Shown: positions 52,497 to 62,241 of the stretch, one piece after another
How the letters are laid out: each line of letters begins with the position of its first letter
Position numbering within the stretch: the first letter of the stretch is position 1
Assembly (NCBI RefSeq): GCF_019880225.1
Contig: NZ_CP082284.1
Location: forward strand, 1,488,001-1,552,000
Origin: Halobaculum rubrum
GTDB lineage: Archaea > Halobacteriota > Halobacteria > Halobacteriales > Haloferacaceae
DNA: 64,000 nucleotides
Direction: 5' to 3'
The notes under the pieces: generated by a model
The model's input: the letters and a program-made list of their open reading frames with translations, nothing else
Databases searched by the model: none
What the model was told of the DNA's origin: nothing
Made by a program: the position numbers and the translations under genes

Positions 52497-54185
52497 TCAC
52501 CGCGAGCCGTGGCGCTCGAACCCCTCCGCAAGCGTCGACGCCGCCACCGACAGCACCGTCGGCCGACCGTGCGGGCAGGCGTACGGCTGCTCGCACTCGC
52601 CGAGTCGCTCGACGAGCCGAGTCGCCGTCTCGCGGTCGAGCGCGTCGCCGGCCTTCAGCGAGGGGTGACAGGCCAGATCCGCGAGCAACTCCTCCCGGAG
52701 GGAATCGGCGCCGCCGCGGCCGCCAGACTCCCGGAGGTCGGCCGCGACCCCCCGAAGCGCGTCCGCGTCGGCGACGCGCCCCAGCGGCGCCGGCACCGCC
52801 GTCACGCGGTAGGTCGTCCCGCCGAACGGGTCGACCGAGAAGCCGAGCGTCGACAGTTCCCCGCGGTTCTCCTCGACGGCGGCGGCCGTCGGCGGGTCGA
52901 GCGTCACCGTCTCCGCCGGGTCCAACTCGGCCGACGGCACCGCTTCCTCGGCCAGCGCCGCCCGCAGGCGCTCGAAGTTGACGCGCTCGTGGGCGGCGTG
53001 TTGGTCGACGACGAGCAGGTCGTCGCCGGACTCGCAGACGACGTACAGGTCGCGGAGGACCCCGAGTACGGTCGCGTCGGCGAAGTCCGACTCGGCCGCC
53101 TCGACGGGGGCGAGCGAGGTGTCCAGGTCCATCGCCACCTCCCCCGACCGCCGGAGGTCGGCGGTCGTCAGCGCCTCCCGGACCCCGGCCTCGACGGCGT
53201 CGACGACGGCGTCGCCGCCGCGGATCGCGACGCGCTCTTTCGCGGGGTGGACGTTCGGGTCGACCGCCCACGCGGGGAGGTCGAGGTGGACGACGGCGAC
53301 GGGCTCCCGGGCGCTCGGGAGCAGGCTCCCGTATCCGCGGGCGACGGCCCGCCGGATATCGTCGTCGCGGACGGGCCGTCCGTTCACGGCGACGTGGACG
53401 TGATCCCGCGTCGAGCGCGTCGTGGAGGGGTAACAGAGCCGCCCCTCGACCGCGAGGTCCGCAGCGCGGTCGGCGAGGTCGATCCCGGCACGGTGCGTGA
53501 CCGCCGTGGACTCGCCGCCGGTCTCCCGGCCGTACAGCGCGACGAGCGCGTCGCGGAGCCCGGTGCCGGGGGTGGACGCCGTCTCCCGGTCGTCGTGTTC
53601 GAGCGAGAACGCCACGTCGGGCCGGGCGAGCGCGTACGAGGTGAGCAGCTCTGTGACCCGGCCGAACTCCCGCGCGGGGGACGCCAGCGACTCCCGGCGC
53701 GCGGGCCGGTCGCCGAACAGGTCGGTCACGACGACCGTGGTGCCGCGGGCGCGGCCGGCATCTTCGACCGCCTTTTCGCTCCCCGTCACTGCCACTCGTG
53801 TTCCGACGGCTGAGCCGTCGTTCGTCACCAGCTCCAGTCGCCCGGCGTCCGCGACGGCCGCGAGCGCCTCGCCGCGGAAGCCGAGCGTCGTCGCCCCCCG
53901 GAGGTCGTCGGCCGCCCGGATCTTGCTCGTCGTGTGGGGGTCGACCGCGCGGACGGCGTCTTCCCGGCCCATTCCGCGCCCGTCGTCGGCGACGCGGATC
54001 CGGTCGGTGCCGTCGCCGTCGACCGCCACCTCGATCCGCTCGGCGTCGGCGTCGAGCGCGTTCTCCACGAGTTCGGCGACGACGCGGGCCGGCCGGGTGA
54101 TCACCTCGCCGGCGGCGATGCGCTCGACGGTCGCCTCGGACAGTTCGCGGACGGCGGGAGCGTCGATCTCGGCGTCGCGGCTCAC
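52497..54185 (-). CDS. mutL: DNA mismatch repair protein MutL
   Basis: A 562-residue MutL. The N-terminal GHKL ATPase has IAAGEVITRPARVVAELVEN near residue 23, DDGRGMGREDA near 66 and the TTLGFRGEALAAVA block near 100. HPAKERVAIR near 315 is the end of the ATPase domain. The C-terminal endonuclease motif DQHAAHERVNFE (residues 394-405) matches the DQHA(x)2E(x)4E consensus, and ACHPSLKAGD near 512 and CPHGRPT near 540 complete the metal site. So this MutL should nick DNA itself, as in organisms without MutH. Its start overlaps the mutS stop by four bases, so the pair is translationally coupled. Confidence 0.95.
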   Translation of the reverse strand: MSRDAEIDAPAVRELSEATVERIAAGEVITRPARVVAELVENALDADAERIEVAVDGDGTDRIRVADDGRGMGREDAVRAVDPHTTSKIRAADDLRGATTLGFRGEALAAVADAGRLELVTNDGSAVGTRVAVTGSEKAVEDAGRARGTTVVVTDLFGDRPARRESLASPAREFGRVTELLTSYALARPDVAFSLEHDDRETASTPGTGLRDALVALYGRETGGESTAVTHRAGIDLADRAADLAVEGRLCYPSTTRSTRDHVHVAVNGRPVRDDDIRRAVARGYGSLLPSAREPVAVVHLDLPAWAVDPNVHPAKERVAIRGGDAVVDAVEAGVREALTTADLRRSGEVAMDLDTSLAPVEAAESDFADATVLGVLRDLYVVCESGDDLLVVDQHAAHERVNFERLRAALAEEAVPSAELDPAETVTLDPPTAAAVEENRGELSTLGFSVDPFGGTTYRVTAVPAPLGRVADADALRGVAADLRESGGRGGADSLREELLADLACHPSLKAGDALDRETATRLVERLGECEQPYACPHGRPTVLSVAASTLAEGFERHGSR

Positions 54186-57043
54186 GATCGCTCACCGCCG
54201 GCGCCGGTGTCGCCGTGGTCGGTGCCATCGTCGTTGCCGTCATCGCCCGCCTCCTCGGCGCGCCGCTGGAGCTCGTGAAGTCGGTTCAGCGCCTCCAGCG
54301 GCGTCGTCTCAGCGAGGGGGAGGTCGCGGAGATCCGCGAGGAGATCGGCGATCTCGGGGTCGGCGCGAGGCGATCCGGACGCGGTCGGTCGCGACGACGT
54401 ATCGTGCCCGTTCGTCGCGACCTCGTCGAGCGTGCGCTGGGGGGTCGCGTCGGCGGGATCGGAGTCGGCGGTCGACCCTTCCCCGTCACGCTCGGCGGCG
54501 ACGAGGTCGTGCGCGCGGGCGACGACCGATTCCGGGACACCCGCCAACGCCGCGACCTCGACGCCGTACGACGAGGAGGCGGCGCCCTCGCGGACTCGAT
54601 GGAGGAACGTGATATCCCCGTCGCGCTCGGTCGCCGCGAAGTGGCGGTTGACGACGCGGTCGTACTCGTCGGCGAGATCGGTGAGTCCGTGATAGTGGGT
54701 CGCGAACAGGGTCGTCGCGCCCGTCTCGTCGTGGAGGAACTCGACGGCGGCGCGGGCGATGGCCCGACCGTCCGTCGTCGAGGTGCCCCGTCCTACCTCG
54801 TCGAGCAGGACCAGCGAGTCGCCCGTCGCGTCGTGGAGCACGTCGGTCAGCTCGCGCATCTCGCGCATGAACGTCGACTCGCCGCCGGCGATGTCGTCGC
54901 TGGCGCCGACGCGGGTGAACACCCGGTCGACCACCGGAAGCCGGGCCGCGTCGGCGGGGACGAACGACCCCGCCTGCGCGAGCACGACCGCGAGCGCGAC
55001 CTGACGCATGTACGTCGACTTCCCGCTCATGTTCGGTCCGGTGATCAGCGCGACGGTCCCCCGCGGGAGGTCGGCGTCGTTGGGCACGAACTCCTCCGCG
55101 GTCTCCTCGACGACGGGGTGACGGGAGCGATCGAGAGAGATGCCGTCGGCGCTCATCTCGGGCCGGACGTAGTCGCGCTCGACGGCGGCGGTCGCGAGCG
55201 CCGCCAGCGCGTCCACACGAGCCATCGCGTCCGCGAGCGCGCCGATCCGGTCGGACTCGCCGTGCTCACGGCTCGCGTCGCTCGCCGTTCGCTTCGAGGG
55301 CTCACTCCGTTCACCCTCGTCCTCGGCGATCCGATCGCGGAGGTCGGCGAACAGCTCGTACTCCATGGCGTCCGCGCGCTCCTCGGCGCCGAGGATCTCG
55401 TCCTCGCGACGCTTCAGTTCGGGCGTGTAGAAGCGCTCGGAGTTCTTCAGCGTCTGACGCCGGGTGTAGTCGTCGGGCACCTTGTCGAGCTGTCCGTTCG
55501 TCACCTCGATGTAGTAGCCGTGGACCTGCGTGTACCCCACTTCCAGGTTGTCGATCCCGGTGCGTTCGCGCTCGCGTTCCTCCAGGTTCGCGATCCACTC
55601 GCGTCCCTCGCGGGCGGTCGACCGGGTCTCGTCGAGTTCGTCGTCGTAGCCCGCGCGGATCACCCCGCCCTCGGTGATCTCCTGTGGCGGCTCCTCGACG
55701 ACGGCGGCGTCGATCAGCTCGCGGAGGTCGTCGAGCGGATCGAGATCGGCGCGCACCCCGGCCAGCGCCTCTACGCCCGCGATCGCGTCGCGGATCCCCG
55801 GCACCGCCGCGAGCGTGTCGTGGAGCGAGCGGAGGTCGCGGGCGTTCGCGCGGCCCCGGGAGATGCGGCCGGCGAGCCGTTCGAGGTCGTACGCCGCCGA
55901 GAGCGCCTCGCGCACGTCCTCGCGGACGAGCGTGCGCTCGGCGAACGCCGCGACCGCGTCGTGTCGCGCCTCGATGGCCTCGCGGTCGACGAGCGGCCGC
56001 CGGAGCCACGCGCGTAGGCGTCGCCGCCCCAGCGCCGAGCGCGTCTCGTCGAGCGTGTCGAACAGCGTCCGTCCGGACCCGACGTGGTTCTCGAACAGCT
56101 CAAGCCCCCTGAGCGCGGTCGCGTCCAGCCGCAGCGAGCGCCGGGGGTCGTACCGTCGGACGCGGCGGACGTACCCCAGCGGCCCGTCGTCACCCTGGGT
56201 ATACTCGGCGTACGACAACAGTGCGCCGCAGGCGACGCGCTCGGCCGCGCCGAAGCGGTCGGGGTCGGCGTAGCGGTCGAGCACGGCGCGGGCGGCGTCG
56301 ACCTCGAACGTCTCCGGGTCGCGCTCGGTGCGCATGCAGTCGGCGCTGTCGACGACGGCGGGGTCGACCCCGGGGCCGCACAGCAGCTCGGCGGGACCGA
56401 TCCGTGCGAGTTCCTCCTCGACCGCGGCGGCGTCGCCGGCGGTGACGGCGCACTCGCCGGTCGACACGTCGACGTGGGCGACGCCGTACGTGGCGTTCGT
56501 GTCGTCCTCACTGGTCGCGTCGCTCGCGGCCCCCTCCGATCGCCGCTCGCCGTCCCGGTCTCGCCGTGCTCGATCGCGCTCGCTCCCCGTTCGGTTCGAG
56601 GCCTCGGTCCCTTCGCTCGCTACGCAGGCGACGTAGGTGTTCGACCCCTCCGCGAGCAGCTCCTCCTCGACGACGGTGCCGGGGGTGAGCACCTGCGTGA
56701 CCGCGCGATCGACGAGCCCGGACGCCTCCTCCGGGTCCTCGACTTGGTCGGCGACGGCGACGCGGTACTCGGCGTCGAGCAGCCGCTTCAGGTACTTCGG
56801 GGCGTTGTCGACGGGGATGCCACAGGCGGTGTAGGTACCGGTGGAGTCCTCGCGCTCGATCCGGGTGAGCTCGCAGATCCGGGCGACCTCGTCGGCGGCC
56901 TCGCAGAACGCCTTGTAGAAGTCGCCGACGCGGAAGAGGACGATCGCGTCGTCGTACCGCTCGGCGACCCCGACGTACTGCGCGAGCATCGGCGTCAGCT
57001 CCTCCCGGCGGTCGAGCATCGTCGCCGGCGCTCCCGTGACCAT
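54182..57043 (-). CDS. mutS: DNA mismatch repair protein MutS
   Basis: A 953-residue MutS1-type ATPase. The mismatch-binding N-terminal domain begins with VLFRVGDFYKAFCEAADEVA near residue 35; the usual Phe-x-Glu motif reads Phe42-Tyr43-Lys44. The connector, lever and clamp regions follow. The ATPase has Walker A ITGPNMSGKSTYMRQ near 682, DDIAGGESTFMREM near 727, Walker B SLVLLDEVGRGTST near 755 and TTLFATHYH near 790. Two low-complexity inserts (about 140-180 and 575-605) are unusual; see findings. The C-terminal ~120 residues are acidic and disordered before a final helix. MutS recognises mismatches and recruits MutL, encoded next. Total length is longer than bacterial MutS because of the inserts and tail. 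Confidence 0.95.
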   Translation of the reverse strand: MVTGAPATMLDRREELTPMLAQYVGVAERYDDAIVLFRVGDFYKAFCEAADEVARICELTRIEREDSTGTYTACGIPVDNAPKYLKRLLDAEYRVAVADQVEDPEEASGLVDRAVTQVLTPGTVVEEELLAEGSNTYVACVASEGTEASNRTGSERDRARRDRDGERRSEGAASDATSEDDTNATYGVAHVDVSTGECAVTAGDAAAVEEELARIGPAELLCGPGVDPAVVDSADCMRTERDPETFEVDAARAVLDRYADPDRFGAAERVACGALLSYAEYTQGDDGPLGYVRRVRRYDPRRSLRLDATALRGLELFENHVGSGRTLFDTLDETRSALGRRRLRAWLRRPLVDREAIEARHDAVAAFAERTLVREDVREALSAAYDLERLAGRISRGRANARDLRSLHDTLAAVPGIRDAIAGVEALAGVRADLDPLDDLRELIDAAVVEEPPQEITEGGVIRAGYDDELDETRSTAREGREWIANLEERERERTGIDNLEVGYTQVHGYYIEVTNGQLDKVPDDYTRRQTLKNSERFYTPELKRREDEILGAEERADAMEYELFADLRDRIAEDEGERSEPSKRTASDASREHGESDRIGALADAMARVDALAALATAAVERDYVRPEMSADGISLDRSRHPVVEETAEEFVPNDADLPRGTVALITGPNMSGKSTYMRQVALAVVLAQAGSFVPADAARLPVVDRVFTRVGASDDIAGGESTFMREMRELTDVLHDATGDSLVLLDEVGRGTSTTDGRAIARAAVEFLHDETGATTLFATHYHGLTDLADEYDRVVNRHFAATERDGDITFLHRVREGAASSSYGVEVAALAGVPESVVARAHDLVAAERDGEGSTADSDPADATPQRTLDEVATNGHDTSSRPTASGSPRADPEIADLLADLRDLPLAETTPLEALNRLHELQRRAEEAGDDGNDDGTDHGDTGAGGERS

Positions 57044-57336
57044 GTGCTTGGCTGTGAGAGGGGCGGGCGAGCGGCGAAAGGGTTTCGCACCGGCTCGGTC
57101 CGCTCGGCGTCGCCGGTGTCCGTCTCGGTCGCTCCACCCGAAGCGATCGGGGTCGCTCCGATCGGCTCGTCACCTCTCCGTTCTGGTCCGGAGCGCTCGG
57201 GATCGCCCGGCGTCGCCCTGGCGTGACATACGTCCGCATGCGGCAGAGTTAGGTCAGTCCGGCCCTTGACGTGGTCTGTGAACGGCACCCAGACAGCCCG
57301 CATCCGGGTGTACTCTTCCGCCGGGGTGTGCGCCGC

Positions 57337-58356
57337 GTGAGCGACGCAGAGGCGGAACCCGAGACCGAGCCGGATGTCGACGAGGAGGCGGACCCCACCG
57401 CCGCGGAACGGGACGGCTCGGCCGGAGCCGCCCCGCTTCCCGTGTCGGAGGCGGCGGACCTCGTCGACCGCGTCGCCGACAACGTCTCCCGGGTCATCGT
57501 CGGCAACGACGCCGCGATCGAGCACATCCTCGTGACCGTCCTCGCTCGGGGCCACCTCCTGTTGGAGGACGTGCCCGGCGTCGGCAAGACGATGCTCGCG
57601 CGATCGCTTGCGACCTCGGTCGACTGCGAGTTCAAGCGCGTCCAGTTCACGCCCGACCTCCTCCCGTCGGACGTGACCGGGATCAACGTGTACAACCAGA
57701 AACGCGGCGAGTTCGAGTTCCGTCCCGGGCCGGTGTTCGCGAACATCGTCCTCGGCGACGAGATCAATCGCGCGCCGCCGAAGACGCAGTCGGCGCTGCT
57801 GGAGGCGATGGAGGAGCGACAGGTGACCGTCGACGGCGTCACCCGCGAGCTCCCGGACCCCTTCACCGTCATCGCGACGCAAAACGACGTGGAGCCCGGG
57901 CGCACCTACGAGCTCCCGCTGGCGGAGGTCGACCGCTTCATGAAGAAGCTCCGGCTGGGCTACCCGGACCGGACCGACGAGACGGAGATGCTGGGCCGCA
58001 CGGCCGGCGAGCATCCGATCGAGTCGCTGGAGTCGGTGGCGACGACCGGGGAGCTGCGTCGCGCCCGCGCGACCGTCGGCGAGGTCGGTGTCTCCGAGCC
58101 GGTCCGCGAGTACGTCACCGATCTGGCGACGTACACCCGCGAGCACGCCCAACTCGGCGTGAGTCCCCGCGGCAGCATCGCGCTCGTGCGCGCCGCCCAG
58201 GCTCGCGCGGTCATCGACGGCCGCGACTACGTCGTCCCCGACGACGTGCAGACGGAGGCTCGGTCGGTGTTCGCCCACCGCGTCCGCCCCCGGACCGGCA
58301 GCGAGTCCGGCCTCGACGTGGTCGAGGACGCCCTCTCGTCGGTGGCCGTCGAGTAA
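57337..58356 (+). CDS. MoxR-family AAA ATPase
   Basis: A 339-residue MoxR AAA+ ATPase, start at GTG 57337 (VSDAEAEPET). The first 30 residues are acidic and disordered. Walker A EDVPGVGKTMLARS is near residue 72, Walker B IVLGDEINRAPPKTQSALLE near 130, sensor 1 TVIATQNDVEPG near 165, and the sensor 2 region VSPRGSIALVRAAQARA near 270. MoxR proteins act as chaperones for metal or subunit insertion into extracytoplasmic protein complexes. The DUF58 gene begins two bases after its stop and the transglutaminase gene follows, a well-known conserved module. Confidence 0.92.
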   Translation: MSDAEAEPETEPDVDEEADPTAAERDGSAGAAPLPVSEAADLVDRVADNVSRVIVGNDAAIEHILVTVLARGHLLLEDVPGVGKTMLARSLATSVDCEFKRVQFTPDLLPSDVTGINVYNQKRGEFEFRPGPVFANIVLGDEINRAPPKTQSALLEAMEERQVTVDGVTRELPDPFTVIATQNDVEPGRTYELPLAEVDRFMKKLRLGYPDRTDETEMLGRTAGEHPIESLESVATTGELRRARATVGEVGVSEPVREYVTDLATYTREHAQLGVSPRGSIALVRAAQARAVIDGRDYVVPDDVQTEARSVFAHRVRPRTGSESGLDVVEDALSSVAVE

Positions 58357-58358
58357 TT

Positions 58359-59476
58359 ATGCGGCTCACCCGACGCGGGAGGGTCGTCGTCGCGGTCGCC
58401 GTCATCGCCGTCGTCTCCGGGCTCGCGTTCGGTCCGCGCTCGCTCAACGCCGTCGTCGTCCCCGCGATCGTCGCGTTGAGCGCCGCATACCTCCAACTGC
58501 GCTGGGTCGAGCCGCCGGCGGTCGCGCGCGACGTGCCGCCGGACGACCACGTCGGACGGACGTACCCCGTCCGGCTGTTCTTCGGCGACCGCGACGGCCC
58601 CCGCCCGAGCGCCGGGGCGGGGATGGACCGCCCGTTCGCCGGCGTCGTCCGCGAGCGCGTCGCCGACGGGGTCCGACTCGCCGGCACGGACGGCGGCGAC
58701 GCCGACGGCGGGCTCGCCGTCTTCGAGACGGTCGTCGGCGCGGTTCCGGTCGAGTACGAGGTGACCTACGAGTCGCGCGGTCGCCACCGGTTCGGCCCGG
58801 CGGACGTGACCGCCCGCGACGCGCTCGGACTCGCGGAGACCGACCTGTCGACGACGGCGACGAGCGAGGTGCTCGTCTACCCCACGGTCCACGCCATCGC
58901 CGGCTGGGCCCGCCGCGACCTGCGCGCGCTCCACGAGACGGGCGTCCACGAGGAGCGCCGCGAGTTCGACCGGCTCCGCGAGTACGCCCGCGGCGACTCG
59001 CTGCGGGACGTCCACTGGAAGTCGACCGCCAAGCGGGAGGACCTCATCGTGAAGGAGTTCTCCGCGGAGGCGGAGACGGAGGCGGTCTCGGTCGCGGCCG
59101 GCGCCGCCGCGGCGCCCGGCGCCGCCGACGGGATGGCCGAGGCGACCGCGAGCCTCGCGCTCGCGCTCGTCGAGGACGGCGTTCCGGTCGACGTGTCGCT
59201 CCCGGACGGAACCCTCACGGTCACGGGCGAGCGCGGCAGTCAGGTCCGCCTGCTCGAACGGCTCGCGGTGATCGGTCCCGGCCGCGTCGCCGACGCGGAC
59301 GCCGACGTGACGGTGTACGGCGAGGCGGACGGCGTGCGCGTCTCCGTGGCCGGGGAGGACCACGAGTTCGCGGACTTCCGCTCGGACCGACCCGCGACAT
59401 ACGGCGTCTCGCGGCCCGACCCGCGGACTGGCTCCGAGCGCGGAACCGGCTCCACAGCGGACGGGGAGGTGGCCGC

Positions 59477-59480
<4 letters not shown>
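58359..59480 (+). CDS. DUF58 domain membrane protein
   Basis: A 373-residue protein with two N-terminal membrane helices (VVVAVAVIAVVSGLAF, then SLNAVVVPAIVALSAAYL). An immunoglobulin-like beta region (EYEVTYESRGRHRFGPADV) leads to the DUF58 core GVHEERREFDRLREYARGDS followed by LRDVHWKSTAKREDL, the family signature. DUF58 proteins partner MoxR ATPases and TgpA-type transglutaminases in membrane-linked complexes. It starts two bases after the MoxR stop and overlaps the next gene by four bases. A final VASSV-like acidic tail is halophile-typical. Confidence 0.92.

Positions 59481-62241
<2,761 letters not shown>

Follow-up and report, generated by a model that had tools for sequence, protein, structure and literature searches.

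Recurrent Replacement of the Phe-x-Glu Glutamate by Lysine in Haloarchaeal MutS1A

The mutS gene of the window, as we call the whole 64,000-nucleotide stretch of Halobaculum rubrum DNA that was analyzed, encodes a protein whose sequence and fold place it in MutS1 but which lacks the classical Glu reader residue: where MutS1 has Phe-x-Glu, it reads Phe-Tyr-Lys. This is a real, fixed, and recurrent variant within the known MutS family, and what makes it interesting is not so much a lone unusual residue as a rewiring that is coordinated and has happened repeatedly. The Glu of Phe-x-Glu is regarded as the residue that licenses repair. Since its replacement by Gln (Glu38Gln) abolishes discrimination in E. 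coli MutS (PMC3848065), Lys should not be neutral at this site. The fixed and recurrent Lys, together with the changes around it, suggests a re-tooled reading of DNA and not a broken gene. Our preferred reading, to which sequence comparisons lead us to give an even chance, is that this MutS1A functions with a recognition surface that has been rewired and probably with an altered substrate preference, alongside a MutS1B that would serve as the classical reader. As a fixed and recurrent charge reversal with similar changes at neighboring residues, the Lys form provides naturally occurring, ready-made variants for asking how MutS separates a mismatch from a pair, and natural Glu/Lys comparisons within one archaeal class bear on the role of MutS and MutL in haloarchaea. 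A search of the open-access literature found no account of a haloarchaeal Lys-type MutS variant, which is weak evidence of novelty, and no binding or mutation-rate report for any Lys-type MutS.

Identity of the gene and of its Phe-Tyr-Lys site

Codons 42 to 44 of the window mutS are TTC (56918-56920), TAC (56915-56917), and AAG (56912-56914), which confirms the exact coordinates at which the first-pass annotation had read GDFYKAFC as Phe42-Tyr43-Lys44 (Table 1). In phmmer alignments that were gap-free around the motif, F42-Y43-K44 lined up with F39-Y40-E41 of Taq MutS and F36-Y37-E38 of E. coli MutS, so that K44 pairs with Glu41 and Glu38, respectively. The site is therefore the Phe-x-Glu site of MutS, as the annotation had proposed, and the charge reversal from Glu to Lys that it described at the recognition residue is real.

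Table 1. Features of the window mutS-mutL locus (window coordinates)
Feature	Position	Strand	Basis or comparison
mutS1A, Lys-type MutS, 953 aa	54182..57043	minus	ORF call, Pfam, NCBIfam, AlphaFold, PDB matches
Phe42-Tyr43-Lys44, the Phe-x-Glu site with Lys for Glu	56912..56920	minus	Codons, phmmer alignments
Arg38-Val39	56927..56932	minus	38 is Gln in 74/74 Glu-type, Arg in 27/27 of the Haloferacaceae Lys clade
Arg61-Ile62	56858..56863	minus	Leu-Thr in 74/74 Glu-type, also in Taq and E. coli MutS
Ala73-Cys74	56822..56827	minus	73 is Met in 74/74 Glu-type (Met of the P-M-A-G motif)
Asn499, clamp region (MutS_IV)	55547..55549	minus	Ser in 74/74 Glu-type
Gln518, clamp region (MutS_IV)	55490..55492	minus	Asn in 74/74 Glu-type
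mutL, directly downstream, start overlapping the mutS stop	52497..54185	minus	ORF call, Pfam, NCBIfam
MutL endonuclease motif DQHAAHERVNFE, intact	52971-53006	minus	Sequence

The rest of the protein resembles E. coli and Taq MutS in having five Pfam domains, a Walker A motif, the Phe wedge, and a coupled MutL; unlike them, it has Lys for Glu and Arg, Ile, and Ala for their common Leu, Thr, and Met. The Pfam domains MutS_I to MutS_V (PF01624, PF05188, PF05192, PF05190, and PF00488) all scored above cut-off (MutS_V, 264.2 bits), as did the NCBIfam MutS equivalog models NF003810 (923.7 bits; cut-off, 480) and TIGR01070 (851.6 bits; cut-off, 641.7), and the Walker A sequence TGPNMSGKST starts at residue 668. 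The best PDB matches were Taq MutS and E. coli MutS; the AlphaFold model (mean pLDDT, 82.3) had 1ewq_A as its top match in Foldseek (TM by target, 0.83) and 1e3m_B in VIA-align (Z, 38.4; 737 residues; rmsd, 5.2). With MutS_V above cut-off, Walker A present, and the MutL endonuclease motif in place, the earlier impression that the ATPase and the coupled MutL look intact was borne out.

By sequence, the gene is of the MutS1A type, nearer to MutS1A than to MutS1B (HVO_1940 and HVO_0552, respectively, in Hfx. volcanii [PMC7776575]). Its domain I is at least 54% identical to MutS1A of other genera and 30 to 39% identical to the second, MutS1B-type match, full-length identity to MutS1B being 41 to 42%, and the gene groups with Halobaculum genes. 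In common with haloarchaeal MutS1A, it adjoins mutL, and its genome carries MutS1B, NucS, and a further MutL besides; in contrast to most MutS1A (Glu44) and to MutS1B (Phe-Tyr-Glu), it has Lys44.

Lys44 was present in the window-type MutS of 11/11 Halobaculum-type genomes, and codon 44 was AAG in each of the 31 Lys genes whose codons were read, so that neither chance nor sequencing error accounts for it. A misread base, a wrong frame, or a misaligned motif would have had to recur identically in separate assemblies and despite a gap-free alignment to solved MutS proteins; we regard such an artifact as ruled out, with only a vanishing chance left to it.

Distribution and origins of Lys44

An alignment of 111 MutS1A proteins from haloarchaea had Glu at residue 44 in 74 of them, Lys in 35, and Gln in 2, counts that are not frequencies since the Lys genera were oversampled. 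When one representative was taken from each of 84 genera, 75 had Glu, 7 had Lys, and 2 had Gln. Within the family Haloferacaceae, a match was found in 148/148 genomes, and at least one gene was read from each of 28 genera, which, with one representative scored per genus, divided into 20 with Glu, 6 with Lys, and 2 with Gln. Outside the family, 63 genera were searched: 6 had no MutS1A-type match, 1 had a partial gene only, and the other 56 had Glu except for Halorhabdus, the sole Lys genus among them (Lys in 7/7 genomes). Two proteins that have Glu by eye (L125 and L202) fell outside the alignment because the motif filter required G[IVT]P, two partial Lys rows (L158 and L230) were left out of the 111, and a partial gene (G408) was not included.

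The first-pass annotation had named universality of Lys in a well-functioning haloarchaeal MutS clade as grounds for withdrawing its claim; of this, universality within a clade was found. Lys occurred in every gene read from the Haloferacaceae clade of Halobaculum, Halobonum, Halolamina, and relatives (here the big clade), in which Phe42, Tyr43, and Lys44 were invariant; however, this clade is a minority, with Lys in 7/84 genera sampled. Universality throughout the haloarchaea was rejected, since 75 of the 84 genera sampled keep Glu.

The class-wide pattern GGNGAYTTYTAYAAR matched in 74/391 genomes, many of the matches not being MutS; among the 30 matches listed, 13 loci were MutS (7 Halorhabdus and 6 Halobaculum) and 17 were not. 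A pan-prokaryote scan, which sets a lower bound because its pattern required a particular sequence around GDFYK, returned 30 hits, of which 11 were not MutS and 19 were MutS on translation. Seventeen of the latter were haloarchaeal (3 Halobaculum species, Halobonum, 4 Halolamina records, 2 Halorhabdus, Halospeciosus, A07HB70, and relatives), and 2 came from alphaproteobacterial metagenome-assembled genomes. These two (L092 and L094) are bacterial MutS proteins with GDFYKLFFEDA and possibly represent further Lys origins; L094 moreover has Leu for the Met of its P-M-A/C-G motif (PLCGVP). Gln44 was seen in two genera of the same family (g24 and g26), whose MutS1A proteins (L143 and L145) read FQNGDFYQTYC, with V39N and F46Y beside the Gln.

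In a tree of domains II to V (96 rows, 739 columns), three changes to Lys were needed, leading to the big clade (Halobaculum, g9, g16, Halobonum, Halolamina, and g4; 15/15 rows; support, 86), to Halorhabdus, and to Halospeciosus, the last represented by one genome. Of the 111 rows, 96 or 43 entered a given tree, with near-identical Lys rows thinned. In the 43-row tree, approximately unbiased (AU) tests rejected a single clade of the big clade with Halospeciosus (p, 3.8e-5) or with Halorhabdus (p, 4.6e-4), whereas a clade of Halorhabdus with Halospeciosus was not rejected (p, 0.16). For this reason two origins of Lys44 are well supported and three are likely. The same tests reject the idea that Lys arose once and then spread by transfer between the big clade and either of the other lineages. 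There was also no sign that these lineages had received their domain I from the big clade, as a domain I tree built without six signature sites again needed three Lys changes, and the rows nearest Halospeciosus, and nearest Halorhabdus after its own genus, were Glu-type.

Changes accompanying Lys44 and selection on domain I

Departures from Glu-type MutS1A were scored, by majority within each Lys lineage, at 228 positions with 98% or higher conservation among the 74 Glu proteins (domain I, 43; domain II, 16; domains III/IV, 84; domain V, 81; C-terminal, 4). The big clade departs at 38, 44, 61, 62, and 73 in domain I and at 313, 499, and 518 in domains III/IV, with no departure in the ATPase domain V, although Halolamina alone and g4 alone each have two further ones there. 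Halospeciosus departs at 44, 61, 62, 73, 111, 114, 480, 499, and 518, Halorhabdus at 39, 44, and 815, and the Gln pair at 39, 44, and 46 (one of the pair also at 281). At the conserved domain I sites, 15 control Glu clades had 0 to 2 departures and the Lys and Gln rows 2 to 7. When the Glu proteins were left out singly, 54 of the 74 had no departure, 17 had one, 2 had two, and 1 had four.

Eight sites (44, 38, 39, 61, 62, 73, 499, and 518; six in domain I and two in the clamp region) form a signature that reads E-Q-V-L-T-M-S-N in 73/74 Glu proteins, the last differing at 39 only. Its domain I residues in Glu-type haloarchaeal proteins are those of Taq MutS (Q35, V36, E41, L58, T59, and M70). 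Besides 44 and 38, at least one signature site was changed in 33/35 Lys rows. Most big-clade proteins carry Q38R, T62I, M73A, S499N, and a changed N518: Q38R was found in 27/27 big-clade rows and in that clade only, T62I with M73A in 25/27 and separately in Halospeciosus, and S499N in 21/27 and Halospeciosus. Position 39 is Ser in Halorhabdus and Asn in the Gln pair; Val429, three residues ahead of the Phe, corresponds by spacing to this position. Beyond what the first-pass annotation described, Lys44 is no isolated oddity: the neighboring surface is changed too, the change has more than one origin, and a Phe-Tyr-Glu paralogue is kept. The other job that the annotation considered for this MutS is a possible one.

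The full set of changes is not required for Lys, because Halorhabdus and two g4 proteins (L154 and L155) hold Lys44 with L61, T62, and M73 unchanged, as are S499 and N518 where readable. Within g4, T62I and M73A are present in L123 and absent in L154 and L155, while Lys44 and Arg38 occur in all three, an apparent intermediate state. With site 44 excluded, enrichment of the big-clade changes in domain I was modest (4/42 versus 3/185; Fisher p, 0.023, a test that counts sites and not independent events), and an independent-pairs sign test had three pairs, too few for significance. In the AlphaFold model, each changed site of domain I falls within or at one end of a beta strand (34-39, 42-46, 61-66, or 69-77) and none lies in a helix, their spatial grouping being judged from secondary structure and published contacts.

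Such convergent changes could also restore one and the same function: Lys and its neighbors might bring back roughly normal mismatch recognition through other contacts, for example with molar salt screening the charge, and leave the role of the protein as it was. The purifying selection described below, the intact ATPase and MutL, and the fact that all the lineages belong to the class Halobacteria would fit. The retention of Glu in 75 of the 84 genera argues against this explanation, since salt alone evidently does not call for Lys, as does the loss of discrimination in E. coli Glu38 mutants (PMC3848065), and we consider it unlikely, although worth keeping in mind.

Domain I of Lys-type MutS1A is under purifying selection. 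Its median pairwise dN/dS was 0.108 in Halobaculum (45 pairs), 0.154 in Halolamina (21 pairs), 0.054 in Halorhabdus (21 pairs), and 0.050 in g16 (3 pairs), and the corresponding ATPase-domain medians were 0.117, 0.075, 0.124, and 0.059; these values cover four Lys genera. Degeneration of the Lys-type protein is not supported by such low ratios.

Partner genes and possible role of the Lys-type protein

The second MutS1 encoded in the window genome (3.06 Mb) is a MutS1B-type protein that keeps Phe-Tyr-Glu and PMAG; a second MutL and NucS are encoded there too. Phe-Tyr-Glu and P-M-A-G were found in all 35 MutS1B genes read (Lys genomes, 30 genes; Gln genomes, 2; Glu genomes, 3); a MutS1B match was absent in one Lys genome (G075, 74% complete). 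NucS was detected in 25/25 genomes tested (weak match in G040), as was MutL_C (17 of the 25 being Lys genomes), with two or three MutL_C matches per genome in the family, some of them split, and one in each Halorhabdus. A MutL open reading frame with the DQHAAHERVNFE motif was found at 26/35 Lys loci, the nine without it being the 7 Halorhabdus loci, Halospeciosus, and L012, a short locus.

These paralogues could permit a Lys-type MutS1A that no longer discriminates and is kept for a task that does not depend on mismatches, for instance recombination or the loading of MutL in the manner of a clamp, while MutS1B or NucS covers replication errors. The invariant motif of MutS1B and the ubiquity of NucS in the genomes tested are in keeping with this, as are published accounts of an effect of MutS/MutL paralogues on Haloferax gene conversion (PMC11276520) and of plant MutS1 without the motif as compromised (PMC12292046). 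However, the Haloferax defect is tied in that source to mutS1b and not to mutS1a (PMC11276520), Phe42, Tyr43, and Lys44 are invariant in the clade, and domain I is under no weaker constraint than the ATPase domain (in Halobaculum, 0.108 versus 0.117). We judge a relaxed protein of this kind improbable, slightly more so than a compensated but otherwise ordinary one.

Eukaryotic MSH3 of MutS-beta probably has a basic residue at the Glu position and, like the window protein, is without Phe-x-Glu. The literature describes the motif as missing from MSH2 and MSH3 (PMC3848065) and MSH3 as inserting Tyr254 and Lys255 at loops (PMC12231599). The likeness is partial, since MSH3, which acts in a heterodimer with MSH2, no longer has the Phe wedge, whereas the window protein keeps Phe42; it does not lack both the Phe and the Glu of the motif.

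Under our preferred reading of a functional, rewired MutS1A, the Phe42 wedge, the ATPase, and the MutL partner are kept and the mismatch-reading surface would have been rebuilt around a cationic residue, with Lys replacing the acidic, hydrogen-bonding Glu and positions 38, 61, 62, and 73 and the clamp-region positions 499 and 518 shifting alongside. Lys would be inserted from the minor groove beside the Phe, as a hydrogen-bond donor and an attractor of the backbone, and DNA would still be kinked by Phe42 but read by a donor instead of an acceptor. Base-base mismatches would then no longer be selected in the manner of Glu, and the protein would probably favor DNA distorted in a different way, for example loops, recombination heteroduplex, or only some of the mispairs; what it recognizes is a prediction from sequence. 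MutS1B would take over classical mismatch reading, and ATP signaling from the Lys-type MutS1A to MutL is expected to persist. More tentatively, Lys44 may mark a second chemistry of mismatch reading, with at least two conversions from acidic to cationic, two lineages sharing the same supporting changes (44K, 62I, 73A, 499N, and 518 changed), and a MutS homodimer with a new substrate (loops or recombination heteroduplex). If true, this would give prokaryotes an analogue of the MSH6/MSH3 split, in which MutS1B would do the classical reading.

MutS1A may be of little weight for mutation avoidance in some haloarchaea, because H. salinarum lacking mutS1A, mutS1B, or mutL was no mutator (PMC2816208). 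A raised mutation rate on deletion in another haloarchaeal species is mentioned in a review as unpublished work (PMC7776575).

In the window genome, MutL_C has another match (G000:C1:636329-636832) about 32 kb from mutS1B (C1:601634-604108), and each MutS1 of this genome may have its own MutL. One MutS1B gene (L261; G096, C1:882031-882237), from a Halolamina-type genome with a Lys-type MutS1A, contains an in-frame TGA, which may be an assembly error (assembly, 79% complete). Beside mutS, on the plus strand at 57271-61831, are three tightly spaced genes, which we take to encode a MoxR-like ATPase, a DUF58 protein, and a transglutaminase-domain membrane protein.
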